37,911 bases of DNA from Bacteroidales bacterium (GTDB taxonomy: Bacteria; Bacteroidota; Bacteroidia; Bacteroidales; GCA-2748055): NCBI GenBank assembly GCA_029210725.1, contig JARGFM010000032.1, positions 1-37,911 of the forward strand. Direction: 5' to 3'. Shown here piece after piece: positions 4,962-32,135 of this stretch. A program made the translations under genes and the position numbers. A model generated the notes under the pieces. The model was not told the origin of the DNA, ran no database searches, and saw only the letters and a program-made list of their open reading frames with translations. Each line of letters begins with the position of its first letter. The first letter of the stretch is position 1.

Positions 4962-5011
4962 GGTTTTTTAATACTAACGGTTAGCCCGGCTATCCATCTA
5001 AACTTATATCC

Positions 5012-8633: not shown

Positions 8634-8936
8634 ATGAGAGCCATCAGCGTCAAATCTGTGGAGTTCCTGGAGGAGGAACTTCAACTACATGTTCATCACC
8701 GCTTTGGAATGGAGCAGTATACCGATTATGTATTCAAGACGGGGGGAGATAAGATTTATTCCGCAACCATCGTCATGGAGTCGAGCGATCAGGTGATCAG
8801 TCAGGTTAAGGAGGCAAGCTCTTCCTTTCCCGGTCATGAATTTGTACTCGTCGACCTGGATACGGATTCAAACGCTTCCACAACCTACAGGATCAGGGGA
8901 GGAGAAATCCTTGAGAAGAAGTACGGCATGTTTTAA
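8634..8936 (+). CDS. Small hypothetical protein, 100 residues
   Basis: I do not recognise this protein. It is soluble, with no signal peptide or membrane segment, acidic in the middle, and predicted to alternate strands and helices (for example YTDYVFKTGGDKIYSATIVM). There are no cysteines and no recognisable catalytic motif. It starts 93 bp after the histidine kinase and its stop overlaps the stop of the converging GH2-like gene by four bases. The upstream sequence has a T-rich run and a TAAATTTA box, close to TAnnTTTG. Codon use resembles its neighbours, which supports a real gene. Confidence 0.6.
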   Translation: MRAISVKSVEFLEEELQLHVHHRFGMEQYTDYVFKTGGDKIYSATIVMESSDQVISQVKEASSSFPGHEFVLVDLDTDSNASTTYRIRGGEILEKKYGMF

Positions 8937-11392: not shown

Positions 11393-11423
11393 GCTCCTGT
11401 GAAATGTGTTAACTAAATGTAAG

Positions 11424-12632
11424 ATGATGAAGCGTTTAATTGCCTTATTGGCCATATGTACCCTCTTTTCAGAGGGGTTTTCTCAAGTGCCTACCAGCTG
11501 GAGAGGTCCGGGGCGTGATGGCCACTATCCTGAGAACGGACTGCTGAAAAAGTGGCCCGCAGGTGGACCGGAGATCCTGTGGTCCTATGAACAACTTGGC
11601 CAGGGGCACTCTTCGGCCATTGTGGATCAGGGCTACGTGTTTACCACCGGAATGATCAGTGAAGAAGGCTACCTTTTTAAATTTGATCTGAATGGAAAGC
11701 TGGTTTATAAAAAGAAATACGGTCCTGAATTTACCGAGAGTTTCTATGGCACCCGCGGGACCCCCACCATTATGGGCGATAAGATCTATCTCCTGAGTGG
11801 TCATGGAAAACTGTACTGTTTCGAAAATGAAACCGGTGATATCCTTTGGAGCAAAGATCTGATTAAGGATTTTGGCGGCACAAATATTCAGTGGGGAATG
11901 AATGAAACACCGGTGATTGATGGAGAAATCATCTACATTATCCCGGGGGGAAAAAAGAATAATCTGGTGGCGCTGAACCGTCAAACGGGTGAAACTGTCT
12001 GGAGTACTCCCGGTACCGGGGAGCTTACTGCTTACTGTACTCCCCTGTTATTTGAACACCATGGAAGAAAGATGCTTGCCACCCATTTTGAATCTCACCT
12101 GGTTGGTTTTGATGCGGCCACCGGAGAGATGCTATGGAAACAACACCAGCCCAACGAGTGGTCTGTGCATTCCAATACTCCGATCTATCAGGATGGCAGG
12201 CTTTTCTATCTGAGCGGCTACGGCCAGGGAGGAGGCATGCTGGAACTTTCCCGGGATGGGAATTCGGTAAAAAAGGTATGGAGCCATACCCGGATGGACA
12301 GTCGTATGGGTGGTGCCGTCCTGGTGGATGGTTATATTTATGGTTCGGGCGACAGCAGAGTCTGGAGCTGCCTGGACTGGGAGAGCGGTGAAGAGAAATA
12401 TACCTCCGGGGAGATAGGTATTGGCGCGGTGATTTATGCCGATGGCATGCTTTATTGTTATACCCAGAAGGGTGAACTGGCGCTTGTAAAACCAAATCCA
12501 TCGGGCTTTCAGGTGGTCAGTATGACCAAAGTGGCCAAGGGTTCCGAGCAGCACTGGGCTCATCCGGTCATCTACGATGGCATTCTCTATGTAAGGCACG
12601 GAAGAGCGCTGGTAGCATATAAAGTTAAATAA
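11424..12632 (+). CDS. Secreted PQQ-like beta-propeller protein 1
   Basis: A 402-residue exported beta-propeller protein. I chose the ATG at 11424 over a GTG at 11406 because it puts the signal peptide (MMKRLIALLAICTLFSEGFS) at the very N-terminus. The mature part begins with WRGPGRDGHYPENGLLKKWP, a motif found at the start of many PQQ-like propeller proteins. Repeated blades contain a tryptophan-docking pattern such as LYCFENETGDILWSKD and LVALNRQTGETVWS. This fold resembles quinoprotein dehydrogenases and BamB, but blade motifs alone do not prove bound PQQ, and no PQQ biosynthesis gene is present. It is the first gene of the operon and a paralogue of the next two genes. The substrate or partner is unknown. 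Confidence 0.85.
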   Translation: MMKRLIALLAICTLFSEGFSQVPTSWRGPGRDGHYPENGLLKKWPAGGPEILWSYEQLGQGHSSAIVDQGYVFTTGMISEEGYLFKFDLNGKLVYKKKYGPEFTESFYGTRGTPTIMGDKIYLLSGHGKLYCFENETGDILWSKDLIKDFGGTNIQWGMNETPVIDGEIIYIIPGGKKNNLVALNRQTGETVWSTPGTGELTAYCTPLLFEHHGRKMLATHFESHLVGFDAATGEMLWKQHQPNEWSVHSNTPIYQDGRLFYLSGYGQGGGMLELSRDGNSVKKVWSHTRMDSRMGGAVLVDGYIYGSGDSRVWSCLDWESGEEKYTSGEIGIGAVIYADGMLYCYTQKGELALVKPNPSGFQVVSMTKVAKGSEQHWAHPVIYDGILYVRHGRALVAYKVK

Positions 12633-12648
12633 CAAGAGTTACTGCAGG

Positions 12649-13895
12649 ATGAACAGAGGTTTTTTATATGTTCTTTTGATTCTTTTAATGGTCCCGGGTC
12701 CGGAGTTGCCGGGCCAGGATGTTCAGTGGCGCGGACCCGCGAGAGACGGGATCTATCCGGATACTTTGCTGTTGAAGGTGTGGCCCGAAGAGGGACCTGA
12801 AGTGCTGTTCGTCACCAGGGGGATCGGACGGGGATTCTCCTCGGCGGTTGCCACCGGAGAAATGATTTATGTGACCGGCATCAAAGATTCTGTCGAGTAC
12901 CTCACCGCCATGGACCTGCAGGGAAAGATCCTGTGGCAGCAAGCGATCGGCCCCTGCTGGGATCAGTCTTTTCCGGAGACAAGAAGCACCCCCACCGTGG
13001 AGGATGACCGGGTCTATGTATTAAGCGGAAAGGACAAGATGGTTTGCTTCAACGCCCGGAGCGGAGAGCAGATATGGAGTGTGGATATTCATCAGGAGTA
13101 TGATTCACGCTGGGACATGTTCGGCGTATCGGAGTCTGTACTGCTTGTGGACGACAAAGTGATTACCTCCCCGGCCGGCGATTACACCCAGGTCATTGCC
13201 CTGGATAAAATGACCGGCGAACTGGTCTGGAAATCCCGATCCATGGGGGCAGCACGTTCCAATATGTCGCCCATCCTGATCGAACACTGCAGGAAAGAAT
13301 ATGTGATATGCTCCACCCAGACTCATATGATCGGGGTGGATCCCGGGAACGGTGAAATACAGTGGGATTACCACTACAACTTTCTGAACGAAAAGAAAGA
13401 GAACACCACCATCCTTGCCAATACCCCCATCTACCGGGATTCCTGTTTATGGATCTCCAATGGTTGGGATGTACCCTCGGTAATGCTGGAAATAGCTCCC
13501 GACGGGAGATCTGTTTTTGAAAAATACAAGGACCGTACCTTCGATAATCAGAACCACGGGGTTGTTCTGGTCGACGGCTATCTGTACGGCTCCAATTTTA
13601 CCGGACGGAACAGTGGAAAATGGGTTTGTATGAACTGGGAAACCGGCGAGATCAAATGGATCGGTGATTTTCATAACAAGGGCCCCATCATCTATGCCGA
13701 TGGCATGCTCTATATCAGTGAAAAGAAGCGGGGTTTATGGCGCTGTTGAAAGCGGATCCCGAAGAATTTAAGGTGATCAGTTCTTTCCGGGTTACAGAAG
13801 GAGCAGGGCCCCACTGGGCACGCCCTACCATTTTTAACCGCACCCTGCTGGTCAGGCACGGGGAGGCACTGGTGGCTTATAAGGTTAAACTATAG
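12649..13895 (+). pseudogene. Secreted PQQ-like beta-propeller protein 2, frameshifted near its C-terminus
   Basis: The intact frame from 12649 gives 366 residues with a signal peptide (about 1-22) and WRGPARDGIYPD, then propeller blades (for example VIALDKMTGELVWKS). It ends abruptly at a TGA at 13747-13749. Immediately after, another frame runs on to a TAG at 13893-13895 and encodes the expected last blade, including HWARP, LLVRHGEALVAYKVK and the same ending as paralogue 1. One missing base near the GGGG run at 13730-13733 explains this. It is either a real recent frameshift that removes about 48 residues or a sequencing/assembly error. It lies 16 bp after gene 1. I call it broken provisionally. 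Confidence 0.8.
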
Positions 13896-13929
13896 AGGCT
13901 TAACATAGTCAGAGTATAAAAAGATTAGA

Positions 13930-15192
13930 ATGATGCAGAAATATATGAAGAAGGTCGTAGCAGTTGGTTTAATGATATTGATATTAAGTGCTTTGGAGCT
14001 CAGGGCTCAGGATGGCCAGTGGCGCGGACCCAACCGGGATGGCAAATATCCCGAGACGGGACTGCTGAAAAGCTGGCCCGGGGATGGTCCGGAATTACTT
14101 TTGAAGAAAGAGGGATTGGCCAGTGGATATTCCTCCCCGGTGATTGTGGATGATATGATTTATATAAGCGGGCGCAGGGACGACCGTGATGTGCTGACCA
14201 AACTTGATATGGAAGGGAGGATTATCTGGGAGAACGATTACGGGAATGCCTGGAACAGTTCATATCCGGAAACACGCAGTACTCCCACCATTGAAGATGG
14301 ACGTATTTATATAATGGGCGGACTGGGAACCGTGGTATGCATGGATGCCGGATCGGGAGCGATCATCTGGCAAAAGGACACCCATCAGGAGTTCGGGGGG
14401 GAGTATCATAACTGGGGCATGACCGAATCCCTGCTGGTAACCGATAAAGCGGTGATATCTTCTCCAACCGGAGAACAGACGGCTGTGGTAGCCCTGGATA
14501 AAAAGGACGGATCCCTGTTGTGGAAATCTGAGCCCCGGGGAGGGGTCCGCTCTTATGTCTCGCCCGTGTTGATAGAGCACCAGGGGACCAGGCTGATCCT
14601 GATCACTACCAGCAAGGACATTATGGCTGTGGATCCCGATCAGGGAGAGATCTTCTGGAGTATTGATCTGGCAGCGGATTACGGGTTTGGTGGCGGGAGA
14701 AGGAATAATACCAATACCCCTCTTTACCACCAGGGGGAGATCTTCACGACTTCCGGCTACGATGTGCAGGCTGTCATGTTGAAGCTTTCAGATGATGGTA
14801 AATCGGCAGAAGTAAAGTGGCACAGCGGGGCCCTGGATGTTCATCACGGGGGCGTAATTTTACTGGACGGATATCTCTACGGGGCAAACTGGGTCAACAA
14901 TGGCAACGGTAACTGGGTATGCCAGGAATGGGATACCGGGAAAGTGATGTGGGAGGAGACCTGGTACAACAAGGGTTCCATCATTTATGCCGATGGATTA
15001 TGTTATATTTTTGAAGAGAAACAGGGGCATATCGGACTTTTAGAGCCGTCGCCCGAAGGCTTTAAACTGATCAGTGAATTCAGACTGGAAAGCCGGTCAG
15101 GTCCCTACTGGGCACATAAGGTCATTAACAATAAAAGGCTGTTTGTGAGACACGGGGATGTGCTGTATGTGTATGACATAGCGGAGAGATAG
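13930..15192 (+). CDS. Secreted PQQ-like beta-propeller protein 3
   Basis: A 420-residue exported propeller protein and third tandem paralogue. A signal peptide covers about residues 8-27 (hydrophobic VGLMILILSALEL), then QWRGPNRDGKYPETGLLKSW. Blade motifs include VVCMDAGSGAIIWQKD, VVALDKKDGSLLWKS and IMAVDPDQGEIFWS. The C-terminal HWAH-like YWAHKVINNKRLFVRHGD matches the C-termini of paralogues 1 and 2, which shows all three share one domain layout. It probably folds into a seven- or eight-bladed propeller in the periplasm or on the surface. No cysteine heme motif is present. The 98-bp gap after it is the largest in the operon. Confidence 0.85.
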   Translation: MMQKYMKKVVAVGLMILILSALELRAQDGQWRGPNRDGKYPETGLLKSWPGDGPELLLKKEGLASGYSSPVIVDDMIYISGRRDDRDVLTKLDMEGRIIWENDYGNAWNSSYPETRSTPTIEDGRIYIMGGLGTVVCMDAGSGAIIWQKDTHQEFGGEYHNWGMTESLLVTDKAVISSPTGEQTAVVALDKKDGSLLWKSEPRGGVRSYVSPVLIEHQGTRLILITTSKDIMAVDPDQGEIFWSIDLAADYGFGGGRRNNTNTPLYHQGEIFTTSGYDVQAVMLKLSDDGKSAEVKWHSGALDVHHGGVILLDGYLYGANWVNNGNGNWVCQEWDTGKVMWEETWYNKGSIIYADGLCYIFEEKQGHIGLLEPSPEGFKLISEFRLESRSGPYWAHKVINNKRLFVRHGDVLYVYDIAER

Positions 15193-15253
15193 ATGCCGGC
15201 CTTCCGAATATTTGATATTCGTAATATTTACATTGAAATTTACAGCAAAAATA

Positions 15254-15278
15254 GCAGTAAAATACTTAAGTTTACTGC
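15254..15278. other. Inverted repeat (hairpin or operator) before propeller gene 4
   Basis: GCAGTAAA (15254-15261) and TTTACTGC (15271-15278) form a perfect 8-bp inverted repeat with a 9-base spacer. AATAGCAG is repeated at about 15250 and 15283. It lies 12 bases before the next ATG. There is no following T-tract, so an operator or mRNA 5' structure is likelier than a terminator. Confidence 0.5.
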
Positions 15279-15290
15279 ATTAAATAGCAG

Positions 15291-16742: not shown

Positions 16743-16764
16743 AACGGAATGTAATGAATCTGAT

Positions 16765-17739
16765 ATGAAGAAGAGAAGTCTTACCGTGGTGATTCTGGTG
16801 ATCGTTGGGCTCATCCTGACGGTCATTGTGGTCGATGTTCTGAATAACAGGCCCGACCGGAGGGGAAAGAATCCATATGCCCTGGAGGTGGATCAGTACC
16901 GGGAAGTGGATGCAGCGCTTATTTCGCATAAGGAGGTCCGGAACTTTTCACTGGGACTTATGATTGCCACAGATATGACCTGTTTTCAGCAGGCCCTTTA
17001 TATTTCAGGAAACTCCACACTGGCAGTGATTGCCCTGGACGGTTCCCCTTCCACCCTGCTTGAGATCCCCCCCGGAGCCACCTGCCTGGAGGTAGACGCT
17101 GACTACATCTTTCTGGGTTTTGGCAGCTACGTGTCCAAATTTGACCACGAGGGAAAACTCCTGCAGCAGTGGGAGGACCTGGGCGAGCGGACCGTTATTA
17201 CAAATCTGGCTGTTAAGGAAGACCGCCTGTATGTGGCAGATGCGGGGAACCGGAGAATCGTGATTTACAACCGGGAAGGGGAACAGACCGGTGTGTTTGA
17301 AGGAAAGGCCGAATCGGATGCCGGACATGGCTTTATTGTGCCCAGCGCCAACTTCGACCTGGCTGTCAACAGTTTTGGCGAGTTATGGGTGGTCAATCCC
17401 GGAAAACATGCCCTGGAAAACTATAGCGACGATGGCCGCATGCGTGGTTTCTGGGAGAGTATGTCCTTTGAAATTGATGGCTTCCTGGGTTGCTGCAATC
17501 CGGCCAGGATCACCACCCTGACCGATGGCTCCTTTGTGACCAGTGAGAAGGGGCTCGTCCGGATCAAGATTTATGACCAGTCCGGAACACTGAGGAGTGT
17601 GGTAGCCCCCCCCGACCTCTTTAACGGAGAGGACGGGGAAGCCCCTGAAGTATGTGCCGATGAGCATGATGTGATTTATGCCCTGGATTTTGAGAAAGAT
17701 ATGGTCAGGGTTTTTGAACCAATAGAGAAAGAAGAATGA
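16765..17739 (+). CDS. Membrane-anchored NHL-like beta-propeller protein
   Basis: A 324-residue protein with one N-terminal membrane segment (about 6-25, LTVVILVIVGLILTVIVVDV) and a periplasmic propeller of NHL type. Repeats such as LYVADAGNRRIVIYNREGEQ and FDHEGKLLQQWEDLGE are typical of NHL domains. A CC pair (FLGCCNPARITTL) and a cysteine in the early part (DMTCFQQA) could form disulfides. NHL proteins usually bind other proteins or glycans and are not usually enzymes. Its stop overlaps the next small gene by four bases (ATGA), which couples them. It probably acts as a periplasmic scaffold within this operon. Confidence 0.75.
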   Translation: MKKRSLTVVILVIVGLILTVIVVDVLNNRPDRRGKNPYALEVDQYREVDAALISHKEVRNFSLGLMIATDMTCFQQALYISGNSTLAVIALDGSPSTLLEIPPGATCLEVDADYIFLGFGSYVSKFDHEGKLLQQWEDLGERTVITNLAVKEDRLYVADAGNRRIVIYNREGEQTGVFEGKAESDAGHGFIVPSANFDLAVNSFGELWVVNPGKHALENYSDDGRMRGFWESMSFEIDGFLGCCNPARITTLTDGSFVTSEKGLVRIKIYDQSGTLRSVVAPPDLFNGEDGEAPEVCADEHDVIYALDFEKDMVRVFEPIEKEE

Positions 17740-17933
17740 ACAGGAGGAATTTTTTAGAGAAGGCAGTCAGGGGAATTCTGCTGGGTGGACTGGCCCTGGT
17801 AAGTGGCCTGCTGGTATCCCGGAAACAGCTTAGCCGGTATACGCAGTGTTCGGCCGGTCTCCAGTGTAAAAACTGCGATAAAATATCTGAATGTCAGCTT
17901 CCTGAGGCTGAAAATCAACGTAAGGATGGATAA
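17736..17933 (+). CDS. Small membrane-targeted four-cysteine protein
   Basis: A 65-residue protein that I do not recognise. MNRRNFLEKAVRG at the start resembles a twin-arginine signal, followed by one hydrophobic stretch (about 13-27). The short periplasmic tail has Cys38, Cys44, Cys47 and Cys53 (C-x5-C-x2-C-x5-C). This spacing could hold a metal or Fe-S cluster or form disulfides. It overlaps the stop of the NHL gene and the start of the ferredoxin gene, so three genes are translationally linked. A role as a small redox or assembly partner of the ferredoxin is inference from this position. Confidence 0.75.
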   Translation: MNRRNFLEKAVRGILLGGLALVSGLLVSRKQLSRYTQCSAGLQCKNCDKISECQLPEAENQRKDG

Positions 17934-18516
17934 AAAAGACAAGAGCAGGGACAGGGGCTATAAGCGGCGGGACTTCATAAACAACGGGGTCAGGCTGGCT
18001 CTGGGGGTCTCCGTAGTGGGCACGGCTGCTTTTACGCTTCAACGCTCGGCTACCGGAAAGGATTATGTTTGGCAGATCGACCCCTTTAAATGTACCCAGT
18101 GCGGGCGCTGTGCCACCGAATGTGTGAAGGCAGAATCGGCAGTAAAATGTGTTCATGCTTATGCCCTGTGTGGCTACTGCGATCTTTGCGGGGGATATTT
18201 CAAACCGGGGGCGAAGCTGGAAACCGGTGCCGAGAACCAGCTCTGTCCCACTGCAGCCATTCAGCGCCGTTTTATCGAGGAGCCCTATTTCGAGTATGTC
18301 ATCGATGAGGAACTCTGTATCGGCTGCGGAAAATGTGTGAAAGGCTGTTCCGCCTTCGGGAACGGCTCCCTGCACCTGCAGATCAGACATGATCTTTGTT
18401 TAAACTGCAACCAGTGCTTGATCGCTTCGAATTGTCCCTCCGATGCCATCGGCCGGGTTCCGGCCGACGAGCCGTATATGATTAAGGGGGATTTCATCGT
18501 AAAAGAAGAAAGCTGA
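17926..18516 (+). CDS. Tat-type periplasmic poly-[4Fe-4S] ferredoxin
   Basis: A 196-residue iron-sulfur protein. I place the start at 17926, because the reading frame further upstream overlaps the previous gene and only this ATG puts the KRRDFIN twin-arginine motif (13-19) and hydrophobic stretch at the N-terminus. There are 17 cysteines. CTQCGRCATEC (56-66), CGYCDLC (82-88) with C107, CIGCGKCVKGC (131-141) and CLNCNQCLIASNC (158-170) could bind up to four [4Fe-4S] clusters, as in DmsB/NrfC-type electron-transfer subunits. Tat export of a folded Fe-S protein places it on the periplasmic side. It lies one base before the NapH-like membrane gene, its likely electron partner. Confidence 0.85.
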   Translation: MDKKDKSRDRGYKRRDFINNGVRLALGVSVVGTAAFTLQRSATGKDYVWQIDPFKCTQCGRCATECVKAESAVKCVHAYALCGYCDLCGGYFKPGAKLETGAENQLCPTAAIQRRFIEEPYFEYVIDEELCIGCGKCVKGCSAFGNGSLHLQIRHDLCLNCNQCLIASNCPSDAIGRVPADEPYMIKGDFIVKEES

Positions 18517-18517
18517 T

Positions 18518-19804
18518 ATGATCAAGAAGGCACCCCGTTTTACTCTGCTTTTTTTCACCCTGGTACTGCTTACAGGAACATTCCTGCATGCCCAGCAGCG
18601 TTTTCCGAAGCCGGAATTTGAAACCGGGTATATGCAGCCCGATCCTACCACCCCGGAACCCAGGGCCATGGCCCTGGAATATTTCGATGTGCTTGTTCTT
18701 CTTGCTGCCCTCTCCCTGGCTTCCTGGCTGGCTATCTGGAAACGGTCCAGGCGGGGCCTGCTCTGGCTTTCCGTTTTTTCTCTGGTCTATTTCGGGTTCT
18801 ACCGCGACGGCTGTATCTGTTCCATCGGAGCCATTCAGAATGTGGCACTCTCCATCTTCGATTCCGGGTATGCCATTTCCATCACGGCATTGCTGTTTTT
18901 TGTTCTGCCCTTGCTGTTCGCCCTCTTTTTCGGGAGAGTGTTCTGTGCATCGGTTTGTCCCCTGGGTGCCATTCAGGACCTGCTGTTGATACATCCCGTT
19001 TCCATCCCCAGCTGGATCAGGAAGACCCTGGGATTTATCCCGGTCATCTACCTGGCAATCTCGGTGCTTTTTGCTGCTACGGGCAGCGACTTTATCATCT
19101 GCCGCTACGATCCTTTTATCGGGATTTTCCGGATGGACGGACCTTTTCTGATGATATTCCTGGGCATCACCTTCCTCTTCCTGGGCATGTTCTATGCCAG
19201 GCCCTATTGCAGGATCTTCTGTCCCTACGGGGTTTTGCTGGGATGGATGTCAAAATTCTCCAGATGGCACCTGAGTATCACTCCGGCGGAGTGTATCAAG
19301 TGCAAGCTGTGTGAGGATTCCTGTCCCTTCGATGCCATTGAGGTCCCGGTCGGGCAGGCTTACCGGGCACCGGAAGTGGCCAGAAAAAATCTCAGAAGAT
19401 TCATCATCTATTTGGCCCTGATTCCGCTGCTGACCTTTGCGGGGGGCTGGATCGGGGCCAGGTCGCATGTCTTTATGAGTCGCGTTCATCCCGATGTTTA
19501 CCTGGCCGAGCTGATGATCAGCAATCCTGAGTTACGAGAAGACGAAGAGAACCTGGATATCCAGGCATTCCTGGAATCGGGGGAGACCTTTGAACAACTG
19601 GTAGAGCAAGCCTCGGTGATCCGCGGAAAATTCCGCAAAGGGGGCATGGCCATGGGTGGATTTGTGGGTCTGGCACTCGGAATCACCCTGATGAATCAGG
19701 TGGTGTTCCGCCGGCGGGAGGATTACGAGCCACATAAGGGTGATTGCTTCTCCTGTGGCCGGTGCATGGATTATTGTCCGGTAGAAAAAAAAGTTGGTAC
19801 TTAA
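18518..19804 (+). CDS. NapH/NosR-type membrane iron-sulfur protein
   Basis: A 428-residue membrane protein with an N-terminal signal or anchor (about 6-25) and about five further hydrophobic segments. Two CxxxCPxG motifs of NapH/NosR type are present (CASVCPLGAIQDL and CRIFCPYGVLLGW), with an earlier CICSIGAIQN. A cytoplasmic or periplasmic CIKCKLCEDSCPFDAI motif binds one [4Fe-4S] cluster and the C-terminal CFSCGRCMDYCP another. NapH-type proteins move electrons from quinol to periplasmic acceptors. Here it is probably the transmembrane step between the cytoplasmic NADH module and the periplasmic ferredoxin. There is no FMN-binding domain of the NosR/RnfG type. Confidence 0.85.
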   Translation: MIKKAPRFTLLFFTLVLLTGTFLHAQQRFPKPEFETGYMQPDPTTPEPRAMALEYFDVLVLLAALSLASWLAIWKRSRRGLLWLSVFSLVYFGFYRDGCICSIGAIQNVALSIFDSGYAISITALLFFVLPLLFALFFGRVFCASVCPLGAIQDLLLIHPVSIPSWIRKTLGFIPVIYLAISVLFAATGSDFIICRYDPFIGIFRMDGPFLMIFLGITFLFLGMFYARPYCRIFCPYGVLLGWMSKFSRWHLSITPAECIKCKLCEDSCPFDAIEVPVGQAYRAPEVARKNLRRFIIYLALIPLLTFAGGWIGARSHVFMSRVHPDVYLAELMISNPELREDEENLDIQAFLESGETFEQLVEQASVIRGKFRKGGMAMGGFVGLALGITLMNQVVFRRREDYEPHKGDCFSCGRCMDYCPVEKKVGT

Positions 19805-19818
19805 TAGAAAGTCCTTAA

Positions 19819-21687: not shown

Positions 21688-21727
21688 TCGGATAGAGTCA
21701 ATTACAAAGAATCAGGGAGACAGAAAG

Positions 21728-24070: not shown

Positions 24071-24101
24071 GGAAACCTTAGAAAGTAAGAGAGGATATAG
24101 C

Positions 24102-25667
24102 GTGGTTAAAATAATGATAGATAAGCGGGAAACAGAGGTTGCCGAAGGCAGCATGCTCATCGAGGTCATCCGTGGAATGGGCATGGAGGTGCCTTCCATG
24201 TGCTATATGGAGGATCTGGAACATTTTACCTCCTGCATGGTCTGCGTGGTTAAGGACCGGAAGAGCGGGAAGATCATTCCGTCCTGCTCCATGGCCGTTG
24301 AGGAAGGGATGGATATTATCAGTGAGGACGAGGAGATCAGGGAGGCCCGGAGAAGTTCCCTGGAACTTCTGCTCAGCGAACACGTGGGCGACTGCGAGGC
24401 CCCCTGCCAGGTGACCTGTCCGGCCCATATGGATATTCCCCTGATGAATCGTCTGCTGGCTGCCGGTAAGTTTCATGAGGCCCTGGTGGTGGTGAAAAGG
24501 GATATCGCCCTGCCTTCGGTGCTCGGACGGATTTGCCCGGCCCCCTGTGAAGGGGCCTGCCGCAGGAAGACCATCGATGAGCCGGTGTCCATCTGCCTCT
24601 TAAAGCGCTACGCGGGCGATTTTGATATGGAAGCTGATCTTTCCTGGAGGCCTGAAAAAGAGGGAGATACCGGAAAGAATATTGCCATTATCGGAGCGGG
24701 TCCGGCCGGACTGGCGGCAGCCTATCACCTGGCCCTGAAGGGGCACCGCTGCCGGGTTTTTGACCGCAACCGCAAAGCCGGTGGCAGTCTTTGTAAAGAG
24801 GTAAGTTCAGAGGATCTCCCGGCGGAGGTCCTTCAACGGGAGATTGATACCATAGCGGCAGTGGGCGTGGAGTTCAGCCTCGAAACGGCGGTGGATGCAG
24901 CAGAGTTCGGGAAGCTGCAGCGCAGCTATGATGCCGTTGTGGTGGCCACCGGAAAGGGAGAGAGTGGTGTGGCGGAATGGGGCCTGCCCCTGCATTCCAA
25001 AGGAGTGGAGGCCGATGGAAAAACGTACCGGGTGGGCGGGACCGGGGTATTTGTGGTGGGAAGCGCCCTGAAGCCTTCAAAAATGGCCATTCGCGTACTT
25101 GGACAGGGGAAGGGGGCGGCCTTCAGCGTGGATCAGTATCTGCGGAATCAGCCTGTCATGGGAGAGCCCTTTCTCTTTAATTCCCGTTTCGGGAAACTGC
25201 TTCCGGCCGAGTTTGCTGAATACCTGAAGGAATCGGTGGAAGGGAATCGCCTGGAACCGGCACGGAAGGGGGACGGACTCAGCAAAGAACAGGTGAAGGA
25301 AGAGGCCGCACGCTGCCTGCACTGTGATTGCCGCGACCTGCACAAGTGCAGGCTCCGGCTCTACTCCGATGCCTACGGAGCCGACCAGAAACGCTTTAAA
25401 TCGGAAGAACGTCAACTTGTTACCAAGCAGGATCAGCATCAGGAGGTGATTTACGAACCTTCCAAATGCATCAAATGCGGGATTTGCGTGCGGCTTACTG
25501 AAAAGCATCAGGAAGAATTTGGCTTCACTTTTATTGGCAGGGGATTTGAAGTCGTGGTCGGGATCCCTTTTCATGAAAATCTGGCTGCAGGGCTGAAAAA
25601 AGTGGCTCTGGAAGTGGCCGATGCCTGTCCCACGGGAGCCATCAGCCGTAAAGCCGAAAATATTTAA
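24102..25667 (+). CDS. [2Fe-2S]/[4Fe-4S]/FAD protein resembling GltD but without the NAD(P)H domain
   Basis: A 521-residue flavoprotein starting at a GTG with a GAGAGGAT-type ribosome site. Residues 1-90 are a NuoG-like [2Fe-2S] ferredoxin (C34, C45, C48, C62). Residues 98-170 match the GltD/NfnB N-terminus (CEAPCQVTCPAHMDI, GRICPAPCEGACRR), which carries two [4Fe-4S] clusters. The FAD Rossmann motif GAGPAG is at 198-203 and VVVATG at 279-284. The usual NAD(P)H-binding domain of about 110 residues between ATG and the closing FAD segment (GVFVVGS, 315-321) is missing. C-terminal cysteines (405-416, 456-462, 509) suggest more clusters. Paired with the NuoEF fusion, it resembles electron-bifurcating Nfn/Stn/HydABC modules, but the missing domain leaves its second partner unknown. 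Confidence 0.85.
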   Translation: MVKIMIDKRETEVAEGSMLIEVIRGMGMEVPSMCYMEDLEHFTSCMVCVVKDRKSGKIIPSCSMAVEEGMDIISEDEEIREARRSSLELLLSEHVGDCEAPCQVTCPAHMDIPLMNRLLAAGKFHEALVVVKRDIALPSVLGRICPAPCEGACRRKTIDEPVSICLLKRYAGDFDMEADLSWRPEKEGDTGKNIAIIGAGPAGLAAAYHLALKGHRCRVFDRNRKAGGSLCKEVSSEDLPAEVLQREIDTIAAVGVEFSLETAVDAAEFGKLQRSYDAVVVATGKGESGVAEWGLPLHSKGVEADGKTYRVGGTGVFVVGSALKPSKMAIRVLGQGKGAAFSVDQYLRNQPVMGEPFLFNSRFGKLLPAEFAEYLKESVEGNRLEPARKGDGLSKEQVKEEAARCLHCDCRDLHKCRLRLYSDAYGADQKRFKSEERQLVTKQDQHQEVIYEPSKCIKCGICVRLTEKHQEEFGFTFIGRGFEVVVGIPFHENLAAGLKKVALEVADACPTGAISRKAENI

Positions 25668-25670
25668 GCT

Positions 25671-26801
25671 ATGAAGAACCGAGGTACTTTTATCCGGCTT
25701 TTGCTGGCCATGATAATATCCGCTTTCTGGACCACCCTGGAGGGGCAGAGCGCCTCCTGCTGGGGGAATTTCAGGGGAGATTCTCAGTTAAGCGGAGTGA
25801 GCAGTGCTTCCCTGCCCGAAAATCCGGCCCTTTTGTGGAGTTTCAATGCGCAGGACATGATCAAGGCGGCACCGGTGGTATGTGACGGGATCGTGGTGGT
25901 CGGAACCCTGGATGGTTCCCTCTTCGGTATAACATCGGACGGGACCCTGAAATGGAAGATCAGCGTCGAATACAGCATCGAAGCGCCGGCACTGATTGTC
26001 GATGGGGTGGTGTATGTGGGGAACCTGGACGGGACCCTTTATGCGGTCGATCTGAACACCGGCGCCATCAAGTGGACCTACCAGACCGATAATATGATCA
26101 TGGGCTCTCCCTCCTTTTACCGGAAGGGCAACAAGAGCGTGATCCTGGTGGGCAGCTATGATTATTACCTGCACGGGGTCGATCCGGAATCGGGCCAGGG
26201 ATTGTGGAAATATGAAACCAACAATTTCATCAATGGTTCGTGTGCCCTTTATAGCGGGATGGCCGTTTTTGGAGGCTGTGACGGCTATATTCATATGGTG
26301 GATGCCCTGACGGGGAAGGTCCGCACCAGCATGGAGATCTCCACCTATGTGGCCAGTTCGGCCGGAATTGACGGGGATTATGCCTTTGTGGGCGATTACG
26401 ACGGGTTTTTTGTGGCCGTGGACCTGCTGGGACAGAAGGTGGAATGGGTCTTTGAAAGCGAGAAGTACAACCAGCCTTTTGTCGGATCACCGGCCATTTA
26501 CGAGGATCATATTTTTATCGGAAACCGCGATAAATTTGTTTACTGTCTGAAAAAAAAGAACGGGAATCTGGTTTGGAACTATAACACCGGTGGTCAGGTA
26601 GATGCTTCCCCGGTGGTGGTCGGTAACAGGGTGCTGGTTGCCAGCATGCGGGGCGATCTTTTCCTGCTTGACCGGAAAAGTGGCAAGCCGGAATGGACCT
26701 ATGAGCTGGGGACCGCCGTTTATGCCAATCCGGCCGTGGCCGACAATCGTTTTTATGTGGCCGGGGATGACGGAAGGGTTTATTGTTTTGGAAAAAAATA
26801 G
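25671..26801 (+). CDS. Secreted PQQ-like beta-propeller protein 6
   Basis: A 376-residue exported propeller protein with a signal peptide (about 1-25). The mature protein starts with CWGNFRGDSQLSGVSS, resembling the first blade of BamB-like PQQ-repeat proteins. Blades repeat regularly: LFGITSDGTLKWKIS, LYAVDLNTGAIKWTYQ, LHGVDPESGQGLWKYE, FLLDRKSGKPEWTYE. It is shorter and more regular than propellers 1-5 and closest to BamB-like folds. No lipobox is clear before the cysteine. It starts three bases after the FAD-protein stop, so it is translated with the NADH module. A role as a periplasmic partner, assembly factor or catalytic quinoprotein cannot be told apart from sequence. Confidence 0.8.
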   Translation: MKNRGTFIRLLLAMIISAFWTTLEGQSASCWGNFRGDSQLSGVSSASLPENPALLWSFNAQDMIKAAPVVCDGIVVVGTLDGSLFGITSDGTLKWKISVEYSIEAPALIVDGVVYVGNLDGTLYAVDLNTGAIKWTYQTDNMIMGSPSFYRKGNKSVILVGSYDYYLHGVDPESGQGLWKYETNNFINGSCALYSGMAVFGGCDGYIHMVDALTGKVRTSMEISTYVASSAGIDGDYAFVGDYDGFFVAVDLLGQKVEWVFESEKYNQPFVGSPAIYEDHIFIGNRDKFVYCLKKKNGNLVWNYNTGGQVDASPVVVGNRVLVASMRGDLFLLDRKSGKPEWTYELGTAVYANPAVADNRFYVAGDDGRVYCFGKK

Positions 26802-26813
26802 AAAGGAAATCAT

Positions 26814-28112
26814 ATGAATATTATGCATATTATCCCCGGATCGGGGGGGAGTTTTTACTGCGGAAACTGTTTGCGCGACTCCAAGTACGTGGAGGCACTC
26901 CGCAAGTCGGATCATCAGGTGGTCAAACTGCCCATGTACCTGCCGCTGTTTGCCGATGAACATGATCTCAGCAGGGAAATACCCGTATTTTACGGGGCCA
27001 TCAGCATTTACCTGAAGCAACTGTTTCCCATTTTCAGAAAGGCACCCGGCTGGTTCGACCGGGCCCTGAATTCCAAGCCCATGCTGAAGCTGGCTTCTAA
27101 ATTTGCCGGTTCCACGAGGGCCAGGGGCCTGGAGGAAATGACTGTTTCCATGCTCCTTGGAGAAGAGGGACAACAGAAGGTAGAGCTGCAGAAAATGGTC
27201 GACTGGATCGTGGAAAACTGCTCTCCCGATGTGATCCATCTTTCCAATGCCCTTTTGCTGGGTCTGGCCAGGCAGTTGGGAGAGCGCCTGAAGGTGCCGG
27301 TAATCTGTTCCCTGCAGGACGAAGATGTCTGGGTCGATGTGATGAAACCTTCGGCGGCGGAGAGTGTCTGGAAGCTGATGTCGACCAAGGCGGAAGATGT
27401 GGCCAGGTTCATCTCGGTGAGTGACTATTATGCCGAAGTCATGAAGGAGAAAATATCCCTTCCGGAAGAGAAGCTGACCTCGGTGCATATCGGGGTGGAT
27501 CCGGCCGATTATATCTTTAAACCGGCCTCTGAAAAGAAACGCAATATTGGCTATGTCTCCCGGATGTGTTTTGGAAACGGTCTGGATATCCTGGTAGATG
27601 CCTTCCTGCTTCTCAGGCAGAAGGATGGCTTTGAGGATGTGAACCTGGTGCTTACGGGAGGCTCCACCGGAGATGATAAGAAGTTCCTGTCCGATATCAG
27701 GAGCCGGATCAAAGAGCATGGCCTGCAAAACCAGGTGGAGTTCCACGAGGATTTTGAGGAGCAGGGCCTCCGGGACTATTTCGAAAAAGTATCGGTCGTA
27801 TCGGTTCCGGTCCGCAATGGCGAAGCCTTTGGGATCTACCTGCTGGAGTGCATGACCTCGGGCATTCCGGTGGTTCAGCCGGCACTCGGAGCTTTTCCTG
27901 AGATCGTCGGACTCACAGGCGGTGGAGTGATCTACAGGGAAAATACCCCGGAGGAGCTGGCCCTGGCCCTGGAAAAACTGCTCTCGGATCCGGAAGAGAT
28001 GGACCGGCTGAGTCACAGGGGGAAAGAGGGAGTGGACCAGCATTTCCACATAGATATACAGGCCAAAAGGATGCTGGAGGTTTATGAGAATGCCATAAAG
28101 TCTGTGAAATAA
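26814..28112 (+). CDS. GT4-family glycosyltransferase
   Basis: A 432-residue cytoplasmic GT-B-fold glycosyltransferase of the GT4 type. The N-terminal nucleotide-independent domain opens with MHIIPGSGGSFYCGNCLRDS, a glycine-rich acceptor loop. The C-terminal donor domain has VHIGVD, NIGYVSRMCFGNGLDIL, VLTGGSTGDDKKF and the characteristic EAFGIYLLECMTSGIPVVQP (ExxxxxxxE with both glutamates). GT4 enzymes transfer sugars from nucleotide-sugar donors with retention. The gene overlaps the start of the ABC ATPase by one base, so it is co-expressed with it. It may glycosylate a lipid or protein exported by the transporter or decorate the propeller proteins. The substrate is not predictable. Confidence 0.85.
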   Translation: MNIMHIIPGSGGSFYCGNCLRDSKYVEALRKSDHQVVKLPMYLPLFADEHDLSREIPVFYGAISIYLKQLFPIFRKAPGWFDRALNSKPMLKLASKFAGSTRARGLEEMTVSMLLGEEGQQKVELQKMVDWIVENCSPDVIHLSNALLLGLARQLGERLKVPVICSLQDEDVWVDVMKPSAAESVWKLMSTKAEDVARFISVSDYYAEVMKEKISLPEEKLTSVHIGVDPADYIFKPASEKKRNIGYVSRMCFGNGLDILVDAFLLLRQKDGFEDVNLVLTGGSTGDDKKFLSDIRSRIKEHGLQNQVEFHEDFEEQGLRDYFEKVSVVSVPVRNGEAFGIYLLECMTSGIPVVQPALGAFPEIVGLTGGGVIYRENTPEELALALEKLLSDPEEMDRLSHRGKEGVDQHFHIDIQAKRMLEVYENAIKSVK

Positions 28113-28795
28113 TGCTTTTAGCTCTGGAAAACATCCATAAGGGATTTGGCAGGCGCGACGATTCCAGCTATCGTCCGGTGCTGAACGATCTCTCCCTGCA
28201 GGTGGAGGAGGGGGAGCGTATCGCCATCCTGGGGCCTTCCGGTTCCGGAAAGACCACCCTGCTGAACCTGGTGGGCGGACTGGACAGTCCGGATGATGGT
28301 CATGTGAAGTTCCGCGGAGAGGATATTACCGGTTATTCCAGCCGGGAGATCGATCAGTTCCGTAACCGGCAAATCGGTTTTGTGTTCCAGTTCCATCACC
28401 TGCTGCCCCAGTGTACCCTGCTGGAGAATGTGCTGATCCCCACCCTGGTGCAATCTGATAAGGCCTCCCGGCTGGAGAGTGCCGGCCGGGCAGAAGCGCT
28501 GATGAAACGGGTGGGCATCTGGGAATTCAGGAACAAACTGCCCGGGAAACTGTCCGGGGGTGAATGTCAGCGTGCCGCGGTGGTACGTGCCATGATCAAT
28601 GCACCATCCATTCTGCTGGCCGATGAACCTACCGGGGCCCTGGACAGCGAGAACGTGGAGAATATGGCCGACCTTCTGCTGGAGCTGAACCGGGAGGATG
28701 GCCTGACCCTGATGGTGGTTACTCATTCCCTCGAACTGGCCCGGAAAATGGGCAGGACGCTGGAGATCCGGAATGGTAAACTGCATCAGCTCTGA
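28112..28795 (+). CDS. ABC transporter ATPase, LolD/MacB type
   Basis: A 227-residue ATP-binding subunit, typical length for LolD-like proteins. Walker A is GPSGSGKTT, the Q-loop follows in FVFQFHHLLPQ, the signature is KLSGGECQRAAVV (C in place of the usual Q after GGE), Walker B is ILLADEPTGALD and the H-loop is VVTHS. It would drive an FtsX-type permease at the inner membrane by mechanotransmission and not by classical import. The next gene is the permease, starting 16 bases later, so the two form one transporter. Substrate could be a lipoprotein or other envelope component. Confidence 0.95.
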   Translation: MLLALENIHKGFGRRDDSSYRPVLNDLSLQVEEGERIAILGPSGSGKTTLLNLVGGLDSPDDGHVKFRGEDITGYSSREIDQFRNRQIGFVFQFHHLLPQCTLLENVLIPTLVQSDKASRLESAGRAEALMKRVGIWEFRNKLPGKLSGGECQRAAVVRAMINAPSILLADEPTGALDSENVENMADLLLELNREDGLTLMVVTHSLELARKMGRTLEIRNGKLHQL

Positions 28796-28811
28796 TCTTC
28801 CCTGCACCGTG

Positions 28812-31800
28812 ATGACGATCCTGAAACTCATACGATCTAATCTGGTTTACTACAGCAGGAAAAACCTGCTGCTTGCCCTGGGTGTGGCCATCAGCGGAGC
28901 GGTGCTTACCGGGGCCCTGGTGGTGGGCGACTCTGTCGAGTACAGCCTGAACCGCATCGTGGATCATCGCCTGGGAGCCCTGACACATGTCCTGAAGGCA
29001 GGCGATCGTTATTTTACTGCTGAACTTGGCGAACGGGTCGGGGAACAATTAGGGATCTCCGTTTCCTCCATATTGTTGCAGGAGGGCAGTGCGGTGGACG
29101 ATGGCGGGGCCCGGCGGATCAATCACATCCAGATGCTGGGGGTGGACCAGAGCTTTGATAAGGTGGCCGGACTGGATCCGTATTACGGAACTCTGTCGGG
29201 CGACTCCATCATAATCAGCCGAAACCTGGCCAACAGGCTCAGTGTAAAGGCAGGGGATGAGCTGCTGCTGCGGATCGAAAAAGCCAGTCTGATTCCCCGG
29301 AATGCCCCTTTTGTTTCCGATGCGGAAAGTGTAGTGACCCTCCGTGCCATGATAAAAGAAGTGGCGGACGATGACCGGCTGGGAAGGTTCAACCTGAAGG
29401 TTTCCCAAACAGCCCCTTTCAATATTTTTATCTCCCTGGAGTCTCTCGGGGACTTAATGGATTTTTCCGGAAGGGCCAATGTCATGTTGTTCCGGGCTGA
29501 CGGACAGGCCGGCGGCTCAGGGGCCGGCACGGAGGAGATTCGGGAGGCTGTGGGAGCGCAGTTCTCGGCAGCCGACGCGGGACTGAAGCTGCACGTGCGG
29601 GACGAGCTCCGGCTGCTGGAGATCACCAGCGACCGGGTGTTTATCGATGATGCCCTCACTGTACCGCTTTCTGAAGCGGCAGCGGGAGGGGAAGGCATAC
29701 TCACCTACTTTGTGAACCGGATCGAATCGGCCTCCGGTGCCGCACCTTATTCCTTTGTCTCCACGCTTCCGGCACAGATGCTGAAAGCAGGAGAGGTGAT
29801 CATTAACGAGTGGCTGGCCGAAGATTTGTCGGCACAAGTGGGAGATACCCTGGAAATCAGCTATTTTAAGGTGGGCCCCCTCCGCGAGCTTACCGATACA
29901 TCGGCCACCTTTGTGCTTCGTTCCATCGTTCCCATGGAGGGGCGTTACGGCGACGGGAACCTGATGCCCGACCTGCCCGGACTGTCCGATGCCGGCAACT
30001 GCCGCGACTGGGACACCGGGGTGCCCATTTCGCTGGAGAGTATCCGGGATAAAGACGAAGATTACTGGGATGATTTTGGAGGGATCCCCAAAGCATTTAT
30101 TTCCGTGGAGCAGGGAGAGAAGCTCTGGAAGAACCGCTTTGGCACCTATACCTCTTTCAGGTACTCCCTGGAAGGGGCAGGGATGGCTGCGGCGGATAGT
30201 TCCGTGGAAGATCTGACCCAGGCGGCGCTGACTGCCCTGGAGGGCTCCCTCATGGAAAAGATCAGTCCGGCCATGCTGGGCTTTACCCTGGAGGATACCC
30301 GGACCAAAGGATACGAGGCCGCAGGGGAAGGGATCGATTTCAGCCAGCTCTTCGGAGGACTCAGTTTTTTCCTGCTGGCATCAGGTCTCTTGCTGATCGT
30401 ACTGCTCTTCCTGCTGAATCTGGAGAGCAGGAGTGAACAGCTGAGGACCCTGGTGGTGATGGGCATCCCCCTGAAAAGCATACGTCGTTTCATACTGGGC
30501 GAGAGCATGCTGGTGACCCTGGTGGGGGCCCTGGCCGGAACCGGACTCTCGGTGGTCTATAACAAACTGGTGTTTATGGCCATGAACGGGGTCTGGAGCG
30601 GGGTGATCCGCACGCAGATGATGTTCATCGATATACGCATATCCACCCTGCTTACCGGGCTGCTTGCCACCCTGCTGATCGCCCTGCTGGCCATCTGGTT
30701 CCCTATGAACCGCAAACTGAAACGTCACTTCAGCGCCTATAAAAAGCAGGATCCTGCAAAGAGGCATAAGCTTGTTCTGTCGCGAAAGGGGATCTTATGG
30801 ATTTCTGTAAGCACGGGCTTAACCGCCTTAACATTGATTGCCTCCCAGCTGGTTCAGACAGAGATCGTGAATGTGGCCCTCTTCTTCAGTGCAGGGGGAT
30901 TGCTCCTGCTGTCGGCGGTTCTTTTCTTCTACTGGCTTCTGTCGCGCACGGTCACGGAAAAACAGGGAGTTATTGACCTGCAGCTCCTGAGCACCAAAAA
31001 TGCCCGCAGGAACCTGACGCGCAGCATGAGCATTGTGATCCTTTTTGCCATCGGGGCCTTCCTGGTGATCTCCACGGGGAGCAACCGGAAGGACCTGTTC
31101 TCCAATGCCGGGGAAACAGGCAGCGGCACGGGAGGCTTCCTGTACTATGCCGAATCCACCGCGCCGGTTCTCAAAAAGCTCAATAATCCGGAGGTTCAGT
31201 ATGAATTCGGCCTGAGCGAAGGCTACTCCTTTGTACAGTTGCGAAAGGCAGACGGAGACGATGCCAGCTGCCTGAACCTGAACAAGATTGTGAATCCCCA
31301 GATCCTGGGCGTGGATCCGGCCATGCTGGATGGAAGGTTCTCCTTTGTGACCCGCACCCCCTACCTGGATGAGGCCCATCCCTGGCTCTCCCTGCGGCAG
31401 GAGCTGGACGACGGAGTGATCCCGGCCATTGCCGATGAGACGGTGATCAAGTGGGGACTGGGGCTTGAAGTGGGAGATACGCTCCGTTACACCAATTCGC
31501 GGGGGGAGACCATGAGCCTCCTGCTGATCGGGGGACTGGCCCCCTCTGTTTTCCAGGGCAACGTGCTGATCGACGACAGGCGCTTTCTGGAGCAGTTTCC
31601 GGAGAGCAGCGGGACCCACGTGTTCCTGGTGGATGGGGCCATGGAGGATACGGCCCAAATCGCTTCGGAGCTGGGACGGGGCATGCGCGACCTGGGCTGG
31701 GATATGGAGCTGTCGGCCAGCCGGCTTGCGGAGTTTAATTCGGTGACCAATGCCTACCTCTCCATCTTTATGGTGCTGGGAGCACTGGGACTGCTGGTGG

Positions 31801-32135
31801 GGACCTTCGGACTGGTGGTGATCCTCTGGCGAAGCGTGATGGAGCGGAGCCGGGAGATCGCCCTGCTGAAAGCAGTGGGCTACAGCCGGAAAGAGATACG
31901 AAAGCTGGTGGTCAGGGAATACATGTTCCTGCTGCTCATGGGTATCGGGACGGGCTTTGTCACCGCGGTGGTGGCCACCCTGCCCTCCATTCTGAACGCA
32001 CATACCGGGACTTCCTTTTTCTCCATCCTGGCCTGGCTTGCTGTGCTGGTGTTCAACGGCTGGTTCTGGATCCACCTGGTGGCCCGTTCGGCTCTGAAGA
32101 ACGAATCCCTGTATACCGCACTCAGGAACGAGTAA
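28812..32135 (+). CDS. Large FtsX-type ABC transporter permease
   Basis: A 1107-residue permease. I chose ATG 28812 because the hydrophobic N-terminus (LIRSNLVYYSRKNLLLALGV) then begins at once; a longer start at 28773 overlaps the ATPase. The protein has an N-terminal helix, a large periplasmic domain (about 50-490), three helices (about 510-650), further helices (about 675-790), a second periplasmic stretch (about 800-970) and three C-terminal helices. The C-terminal FtsX signature is SREIALLKAVGYSRKEIRKLVVREY. It is much larger than LolC/E (about 400) and resembles large FtsX-type permeases of unknown substrate. With the ATPase it probably moves material across or out of the inner membrane for this system. 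Confidence 0.9.
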   Translation: MTILKLIRSNLVYYSRKNLLLALGVAISGAVLTGALVVGDSVEYSLNRIVDHRLGALTHVLKAGDRYFTAELGERVGEQLGISVSSILLQEGSAVDDGGARRINHIQMLGVDQSFDKVAGLDPYYGTLSGDSIIISRNLANRLSVKAGDELLLRIEKASLIPRNAPFVSDAESVVTLRAMIKEVADDDRLGRFNLKVSQTAPFNIFISLESLGDLMDFSGRANVMLFRADGQAGGSGAGTEEIREAVGAQFSAADAGLKLHVRDELRLLEITSDRVFIDDALTVPLSEAAAGGEGILTYFVNRIESASGAAPYSFVSTLPAQMLKAGEVIINEWLAEDLSAQVGDTLEISYFKVGPLRELTDTSATFVLRSIVPMEGRYGDGNLMPDLPGLSDAGNCRDWDTGVPISLESIRDKDEDYWDDFGGIPKAFISVEQGEKLWKNRFGTYTSFRYSLEGAGMAAADSSVEDLTQAALTALEGSLMEKISPAMLGFTLEDTRTKGYEAAGEGIDFSQLFGGLSFFLLASGLLLIVLLFLLNLESRSEQLRTLVVMGIPLKSIRRFILGESMLVTLVGALAGTGLSVVYNKLVFMAMNGVWSGVIRTQMMFIDIRISTLLTGLLATLLIALLAIWFPMNRKLKRHFSAYKKQDPAKRHKLVLSRKGILWISVSTGLTALTLIASQLVQTEIVNVALFFSAGGLLLLSAVLFFYWLLSRTVTEKQGVIDLQLLSTKNARRNLTRSMSIVILFAIGAFLVISTGSNRKDLFSNAGETGSGTGGFLYYAESTAPVLKKLNNPEVQYEFGLSEGYSFVQLRKADGDDASCLNLNKIVNPQILGVDPAMLDGRFSFVTRTPYLDEAHPWLSLRQELDDGVIPAIADETVIKWGLGLEVGDTLRYTNSRGETMSLLLIGGLAPSVFQGNVLIDDRRFLEQFPESSGTHVFLVDGAMEDTAQIASELGRGMRDLGWDMELSASRLAEFNSVTNAYLSIFMVLGALGLLVGTFGLVVILWRSVMERSREIALLKAVGYSRKEIRKLVVREYMFLLLMGIGTGFVTAVVATLPSILNAHTGTSFFSILAWLAVLVFNGWFWIHLVARSALKNESLYTALRNE

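Follow-up and report, generated by a model that had tools for sequence, protein, structure and literature searches.

A conserved Bacteroidales operon in which a Bfu-type electron-bifurcating module may be joined to a NapH-like membrane protein, an exported ferredoxin and propellers

We analysed positions 1 to 37,911 of contig JARGFM010000032.1 from a Bacteroidales bacterium (assembly GCA_029210725.1), a stretch of 37,911 nucleotides hereafter called the window. It contains an operon of 14 genes, all on the + strand, at positions 11406-32135. According to Pfam and NCBIfam models these encode six propellers of the pyrroloquinoline quinone (PQQ) type, an NHL propeller, a ferredoxin of the twin-arginine translocation (Tat) type, a NapH-like membrane Fe-S protein, two cytoplasmic Fe-S/flavin proteins, a GT4 glycosyltransferase and an ATP-binding cassette (ABC)/FtsX pair. 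A sequence-only reading had listed these gene types, their common direction and their tight packing, all of which were borne out, and had counted fifteen genes; our count is 14, the last one ending at 32135. Between consecutive genes, starting at the first propeller and ending at FtsX, the spacing is 16, 180, 98, 22, 63, 1, 14, -29, 31, 3, 12, -1 and -23 bases. As judged from its sequence features, the operon would add a new variant to the electron-bifurcating Bfu family. We put at about even the prospect that it encodes a membrane-spanning Bfu enzyme whose third partner is reached across the membrane through the NapH-like protein and the Tat ferredoxin, with a lean towards outward electron flow. 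More tentatively, and with rather more doubt, this might be the first bifurcating enzyme with its third substrate beyond the membrane, in which a haem-free wire of NapH, ferredoxin and propellers carries electrons of near -400 mV to the periplasm or the surface.

The assignment to the Bfu family is based in the first place on the 803-residue protein encoded at 21659-24070 (+; probable start near 21728), which contains a NuoE domain, a second 2Fe-2S domain, a NuoF domain and a C-terminal 2[4Fe-4S] domain. The scores of PF01257 (173.1 bits), PF01512 (139.7), PF10589 (105.7) and Fer4_21 (40.4) were all over the cut-off, and the SLBB family PF10531 scored 26.7 bits, just below its cut-off of 27. 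The domain set of Bfu proteins comprises FMN-binding, SLBB, NADH 4Fe-4S, ferredoxin and NuoE domains, which we take to be the InterPro counterparts of these Pfam families. The nearest solved chains were NfnB (9n5u_B), the StnB-like chain 8oh5_B, 9bov_B and HydB chains; complex I came far behind, and the NuoF model stayed below its cut-off (464.1 versus 558.65). The Bfu family is defined by a conserved BfuBC core, and the His ligand of its cluster B2 is described as missing from non-bifurcating homologues (Schut et al. 2022, PMC9304861). In an alignment with 7t2r_B, the B2 ligands C438, C476, H525, C531 and C536 correspond to C646, T684, H733, C738 and C743 of the window protein (numbering counted by hand). 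Conservation was determined on alignments from which partial proteins had been dropped and which held 8-87 rows depending on the family (only 2 for FtsX). Among the 70 rows of this protein, one of which is cut short in the B2 region, C646 is kept in 70, H733, C738 and C743 in 69 each, and position 684 in 62 (Thr in 45, Cys in 17). The ligand Cys of clusters B3, B4, B5 and C1 are kept in 68-70 of the 70 rows, and the usual four Cys of B1 in 61. Since ligands of B2-B5 are present, a plain NADH module of complex I (NuoEF) was rejected. The NuoE-NuoF fusion of the earlier reading is correct as far as these two domains are concerned, but the additional 2Fe-2S and 2[4Fe-4S] domains indicate that the protein is a BfuC-BfuB fusion (BfuBC) of the electron-bifurcating HydABC/Stn family.

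The adjacent gene (24102-25667, +) encodes a protein of 521 residues with the Fe-S domains Fer2_4 (45.9 bits), Fer4_20 (70) and Fer4_Nqo3 (28.1), in which Cys 34, 45, 48 and 62 are conserved in 59 rows. It was aligned to 9n5u_A and to 8oh5_C; the latter alignment covers only residues 4-290 and 453-674 of the 1172 residues of 8oh5_C, whose residues 291-452 have no counterpart in the window protein. From its length we have taken 8oh5_C to be the StnC described in PMC10482914, where the part that binds FAD and NADPH spans residues 102-565 and an inactive FdhF-like domain residues 683-1172. The limits of the alignment together with this domain map therefore indicate that the operon protein lacks some 160 residues of the FAD/NADPH region as well as the C-terminal domain. 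In agreement with this, the equivalent of StnC R239 is variable across the 59 rows. Six distant loci encode still shorter versions of 323-366 residues, and the one of these that was scanned keeps its Fe-S domains and gave no Pfam match to an FAD domain. Thus, the FAD/Fe-S protein of the earlier reading does have domains of that type, and the alignment points to a BfuA of the Bfu family that lacks the NADPH region.

Paralogues of these proteins in three Bacteroidales genomes are unfused and show the Stn layout, with a BfuC of 172-176 residues, a BfuB of 592-595 and a BfuA of 1099-1230 (one of them cut by the edge of the fetched sequence). In a BfuB tree of 39 chosen rows, seven of which were paralogues, all 32 operon rows fell into one group with support 100/100, on a stem of 1.22. 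The exact sister is unsure owing to long branches in two of the paralogues. The fused BfuBC was found in all six families with NapH and in none of the 27 without it, when the 33 families other than that of the window were compared (Fisher 9e-7). The simplest reading of these sequence data is that NapH and the periplasmic parts replaced NADP(H) as the third partner.

The NapH-like protein (18518-19804, +) matches PF12801 with 50.4 bits and lies far below the cut-off of TIGR02163 (46.1 versus 213.05 bits). Fifteen Cys are invariant in eight diverse sequences, seven of them in the membrane part and the others in two ferredoxin motifs. The gene directly upstream (17803-18516, +; probable start 17926) encodes a NapG-like, multi-cluster ferredoxin with matches to Fer4 families. 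A twin-Arg-like motif, searched for with a loose pattern, is present in 83 of 83 orthologues, and 17 Cys are conserved in 30 rows, which is enough for four [4Fe-4S] clusters. The sequence-only reading had noted no CxxCH motif in the Fe-S genes; this holds for all 27 window proteins, none of which carries one, so that c-type cytochromes were ruled out. In addition, no FMN-binding family was detected among the 14 operon proteins at E 0.001. The proposal of that reading, a haem-free relay between NAD(H) and the periplasm, is retained to the extent that the conserved haem-free parts could link an NAD(H) module via NapH to the periplasm; the module itself would be a bifurcating core of the Bfu type and not a plain NuoEF. 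Another NapH-like gene was observed in genome G059 (L052, 89-4179), followed by a gene for a 424-residue protein without a Pfam match and one for a Tat-type polyferredoxin of 541 residues with 67 Cys. This locus is possibly a haem-free counterpart of multihaem wires.

Gene order was compared after a scan for NapH in one genome per species (84,980 species), which gave 538 relatives, the best 80 of which were kept. The following counts refer to these 80 loci (L057-L136), presuppose NapH and include a locus only where the contig leaves room. NapH and P8, the propeller gene that follows it, were adjacent in 78 of 78 loci, and ferredoxin and NapH in 76 of 78 (separated in one, ferredoxin not recognised in one). 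Similar values were obtained for NHL and ferredoxin (73 of 74, one separated) and for P4, the propeller gene upstream of NHL, and NHL (69 of 71, two separated). P8 and BfuBC were adjacent in 65 loci and separated in six (n=71), BfuBC and BfuA in 44 and 13 (n=57), and BfuA and the propeller gene P11 in 45 and one (n=50). Downstream, P11-GT4 (41/41), GT4-ABC (31/31) and ABC-FtsX (22/22) were always adjacent. At least one gene of the type of the first three propellers (pA, pB and pC) lies upstream of P4 in all 51 loci in which P4 starts beyond base 5000. Those inserts between operon genes that were inspected by eye appear to encode two-component proteins, SGNH hydrolases and mobile-element or nuclease proteins. 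The set persists in distant families of the order, at roughly 30-60% identity depending on the gene; in G049 the content is kept and the order is changed, with GT4 and an exported propeller placed after FtsX. Chance neighbourhood was ruled out by the order kept across these loci and by the co-occurrence of fused BfuBC and NapH. Gene order is strongly conserved across many Bacteroidales, beyond chance, and the earlier reading, which was to fall if relatives did not keep the order, is upheld in this respect.

GT4 belongs to the same pattern. Among 61 relatives, 24 have both GT4 and NapH, four NapH only, four GT4 only and 29 neither (Fisher 4.6e-9); for the 33 other families, with one genome each, the corresponding numbers are 5, 1, 1 and 26 (Fisher 1.5e-4). 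In 28 of the 61 relatives, NapH matched at 40% identity or more along most of its length. Order-wide, 46 of 295 genomes matched NapH at 1e-60 or better, spread over 28 families, and 12 more did so weakly. Judging by 395 sampled genomes from the phylum, where NapH matched at 1e-30 only in that of the window, the system looks limited to the Bacteroidales and patchy within this order. Titles among the best 80 of the 538 relatives include Draconibacterium, Maribellus, Mariniphaga, Prolixibacteraceae and many metagenome-assembled genomes; named carriers include Mariniphaga sediminis, several Maribellus, and Draconibacterium orientale, D. sediminis and D. mangrovi. Some titles point to other groups, such as Chlorobiota and Lewinellaceae, and these carriers may be misnamed bins.

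Membrane segments and signals were assigned by a simple hydropathy scan and by eye. Three of the propellers appear to be anchored in the membrane. P4 (15291-16742, +; PF13360, 57 bits) has an N-terminal hydrophobic stretch at residues 16-34 and is the most conserved propeller, with 120 columns at 97% in 70 rows. Its model (predicted local distance difference test score, pLDDT, 86.9) is a BamB-like propeller with tetrathionate hydrolase among the structural matches, and its many invariant polar residues suggest that it is more than a scaffold. The NHL-type protein (16765-17739, +) has no Pfam match, an N-terminal membrane anchor and a GCCNP motif that is present in 79 of 79 NHL proteins; its model (pLDDT 87.4) is a six-bladed NHL propeller. 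A twin-Arg-like start was detected in five of 80 NHL proteins, including that of G049 (L051), and in none of the others by that pattern; the NHL protein of G600 also has one, seen by eye. P8 (19819-21687, +; PF13360, 103.7 bits) has three N-terminal transmembrane segments at 20-38, 97-115 and 140-158. The model alignments were built from 31 of 65, 32 of 74 and 30 of 72 candidate rows, each with the window added. The earlier description of the propellers as PQQ-like probably does not extend to the cofactor. The best score of a PQQ-enzyme model was 67 bits for TIGR03075 versus a cut-off of 480.05 (five of the six propellers, all but pB, were scanned), and PqqE was over the cut-off in 0 of 61 genomes and also in 0 of 14 control genomes, so that this search has no positive control. 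PQQ enzymes were accordingly rejected as the default interpretation, and PQQ use by the operon propellers seems unlikely.

On the basis of homology and cofactor ligands, the BfuC-BfuB fusion, with FMN, NAD(H) and a ferredoxin site, would form the cytoplasmic bifurcating module together with BfuA as the wire subunit. Because the core is of the Bfu type, ferredoxin is expected as the second cytoplasmic partner; the host has RnfC, encoded separately from the operon, and its ferredoxin and NAD(H) pools would therefore be linked. As seen in its sequence, BfuA lacks the NADP(H) region, which serves the third substrate in Stn-type relatives. Co-occurrence and gene order suggest instead that BfuA exchanges electrons with the NapH-like protein, which in turn would exchange them with the Tat ferredoxin and the membrane-anchored periplasmic proteins P4, NHL and P8. 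With outward flow, NADH and reduced ferredoxin would be merged and the periplasmic ferredoxin would receive electrons at about -400 mV, to be spent on a reduction outside or passed to an electron sink there. The propellers would probably act as docking or catalytic subunits without PQQ, and GT4 and the ABC/FtsX pair may serve the same envelope function. Our modest lean towards outward flow reflects that none of the operon genes was recognised as encoding a substrate-oxidising cofactor enzyme.

Several observations weigh against a membrane-spanning Bfu enzyme with outward flow. The argument for the direction is weak, and the propellers have no recognised redox cofactor. Position 684 of the B2 site is Val in eight of the 70 rows. 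In the nine rows that depart from the usual B1 pattern, namely the window and eight others of its genus, the third Cys (codon 669) is replaced by Gly and a Cys is found at 712; the pair 669/712 is (C,G) in 61 rows and (G,C) in nine, with no other combination, which looks like a ligand swap between two loops that probably occurred in one event. Among the 28 draft genomes of the window's own family, three have NapH without the operon BfuBC (G014, G017 and G025) and three the operon BfuBC without NapH (G007, G011 and G022). P11 is absent from four of 50 loci, and in a sample of the phylum NapH was found at 1e-30 in one of 395 genomes, that of the window itself. The sole fusion seen in the 119 loci scanned joins BfuA to P11; for the supposed contact between NapH and BfuA there is none.

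In a different explanation, the locus would house two separate functions: that of a Bfu enzyme in the cytoplasm, and that of a system of NapH, ferredoxin, propellers, GT4 and ABC/FtsX that assembles or exports an envelope component. The resemblance of P4 to BamB, the LolD-like ATPase, the propellers without a known redox cofactor and one weak promoter-like match (9 of 12) in the gap between pC and P4 would fit such a division, as would a contig of G043 (L197 / L186) that begins inside GT4 and continues with ABC and FtsX, in a genome that is 70% complete and in which no NapH orthologue was found. We nevertheless consider it the least probable alternative, since fused BfuBC accompanies NapH in six of six other families and occurs in 0 of the 27 without NapH, P8 stands between NapH and BfuBC in the loci with room, and the loss of the NADPH region requires another partner. 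It is also improbable, in our estimate, that NapH exchanges electrons with menaquinone, giving a quinone-linked Bfu complex from whose quinone pool the Tat ferredoxin and the propellers branch off. Nuo-Bfu is proposed in PMC9304861 to use menaquinone, but the protein studied here is far below the NapH cut-off and keeps the ferredoxin at its side in 76 of 78 loci. The same complex might also work in reverse: a low-potential periplasmic substrate would be oxidised at the propellers and its electrons would pass inward via the Tat ferredoxin and NapH, making NADH and reduced ferredoxin together, which is allowed if the donor lies near -400 mV. Bfu enzymes are described as reversible (PMC9304861), NapH-like modules are reported alongside the propeller alcohol oxidase ExaA in 172 genomes (PMC8238504), and the invariant polar residues of P4 are enzyme-like. 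The low scores of the PQQ-enzyme models, the lack of PqqE hits (with the limit on controls given above) and the failure to recognise any other substrate-oxidising cofactor enzyme in the operon argue the other way, and we regard inward flow as possible but unlikely.

Compared with known systems, the closest solved sequences are those of the Stn / Nfn-Bfu transhydrogenases (StnABC of Sporomusa ovata, Nfn-Bfu of Thermococcus sibiricus), which share BfuC and BfuB as well as a BfuA that combines GltD-like with NuoG-like parts. The operon differs from these in that BfuC and BfuB are fused, that BfuA is without about 160 residues of the FAD/NADPH region and without the FdhF-like domain, and that NapH, the Tat ferredoxin and propellers are added. 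The bifurcating hydrogenases HydABC and NiFe-HydABCSL have the same Bfu core with ligands of B2-B5 and C1 and, as far as the 61 of 70 rows with the usual four Cys go, of B1, whereas no H-cluster or NiFe subunit was recognised among the operon proteins. In Mbh-Bfu and Nuo-Bfu, presented in PMC9304861 as predicted membrane-bound enzymes, a Bfu core is likewise predicted to join a membrane complex, but these use hydrogenase or complex-I pump subunits where the operon has NapH and periplasmic Fe-S and propeller proteins. NapGH and the flavinylated NapH-like systems described in PMC8238504 also place a NapH-type protein beside an exported ferredoxin or oxidoreductase; the operon differs in that no FMN-binding domain was found, that the TIGR02163 score is far below cut-off and that its electrons would be tied to a Bfu module. 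The Rnf complex likewise links ferredoxin, NAD(H) and the membrane, and the operon has no Rnf subunit.

Both halves have precedents: PMC9304861 covers Bfu enzymes whose partners are soluble, hydrogenase-linked or complex-I-linked, and PMC8238504 reports NapH-like modules accompanied, in another setting, by a propeller oxidase outside the cytosol. The terms PQQ, propeller and NapH do not occur in the main text of PMC9304861, and no description of a Bfu module joined to a NapH/propeller system was found in searches of the open-licence PMC literature; the sequence-only reading likewise knew of no described system with this gene set. According to Schut et al. (PMC9304861), 17 BfuB clades are left without an obvious function, and the operon offers a concrete, testable third partner outside the cytoplasm. 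If the proposal is true, anaerobic Bacteroidota would have a haem-free route for low-potential electrons through the inner membrane, and many Bacteroidales could carry out low-potential chemistry or extracellular electron transfer with no need of cytochromes. Cultured Draconibacterium and Maribellus are among the carriers, so experiments need not await uncultured lineages.

The other operon genes, all on the + strand, are as follows. The exported propellers pA (11406-12632, probable start 11424), pB (12649-13749) and pC (13930-15192) match PF13360 with 81.4, 87.9 and 84.7 bits. In this genome pB is shortened by a TGA, at which it ends after 366 residues, compared with 413-432 in six relatives. 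P11, another exported propeller (25671-26801), matches PF13570 with 201.8 bits. The BfuA-P11 frame mentioned above is in G591 (L189 4448-7051, - strand), where 867 residues include both proteins with a hydrophobic stretch between them; it may be an assembly error. The GT4 glycosyltransferase (26814-28112; PF00534, 86.5 bits) has an N-terminal YCxNCLRD stretch with two Cys that is invariant in 41 rows. It is followed by the LolD-like ABC ATPase (28112-28795; TIGR02211, 247 versus a cut-off of 307.75) and the FtsX/MacB-type permease of 1120 residues (28773-32135; PF02687, 77.3 bits).

Directly upstream of the operon in G600 (L193 1-4882) and G049 (L192 14657-19000 with L051 1173-3790), and on the same strand, lies a block encoding a 4Fe-4S protein, a radical SAM protein, a DUF116-polyprenyl synthase and two prenyltransferase/squalene-cyclase-like proteins. 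The system may serve a lipid-like product in this branch, which would fit GT4 and the FtsX exporter. Full-length matches to the G049 synthase were found in only two of the 61 relatives, namely G042 and G049 itself, each of which carries NapH; on this ground a terpenoid role would be accessory at most.

Scans of the window DNA gave no terminator-like match on the + strand within the operon gaps, no Rfam match at the gathering score, no tRNA and no match to a Bacteroidota promoter consensus; sigma-70 promoter matches were overall at the level of shuffled sequence. One short tandem repeat lies inside the FtsX gene. Upstream of the operon, a GH2 enzyme (8933-10465, - strand) has 510 residues versus about 806 in relatives and is shortened here.

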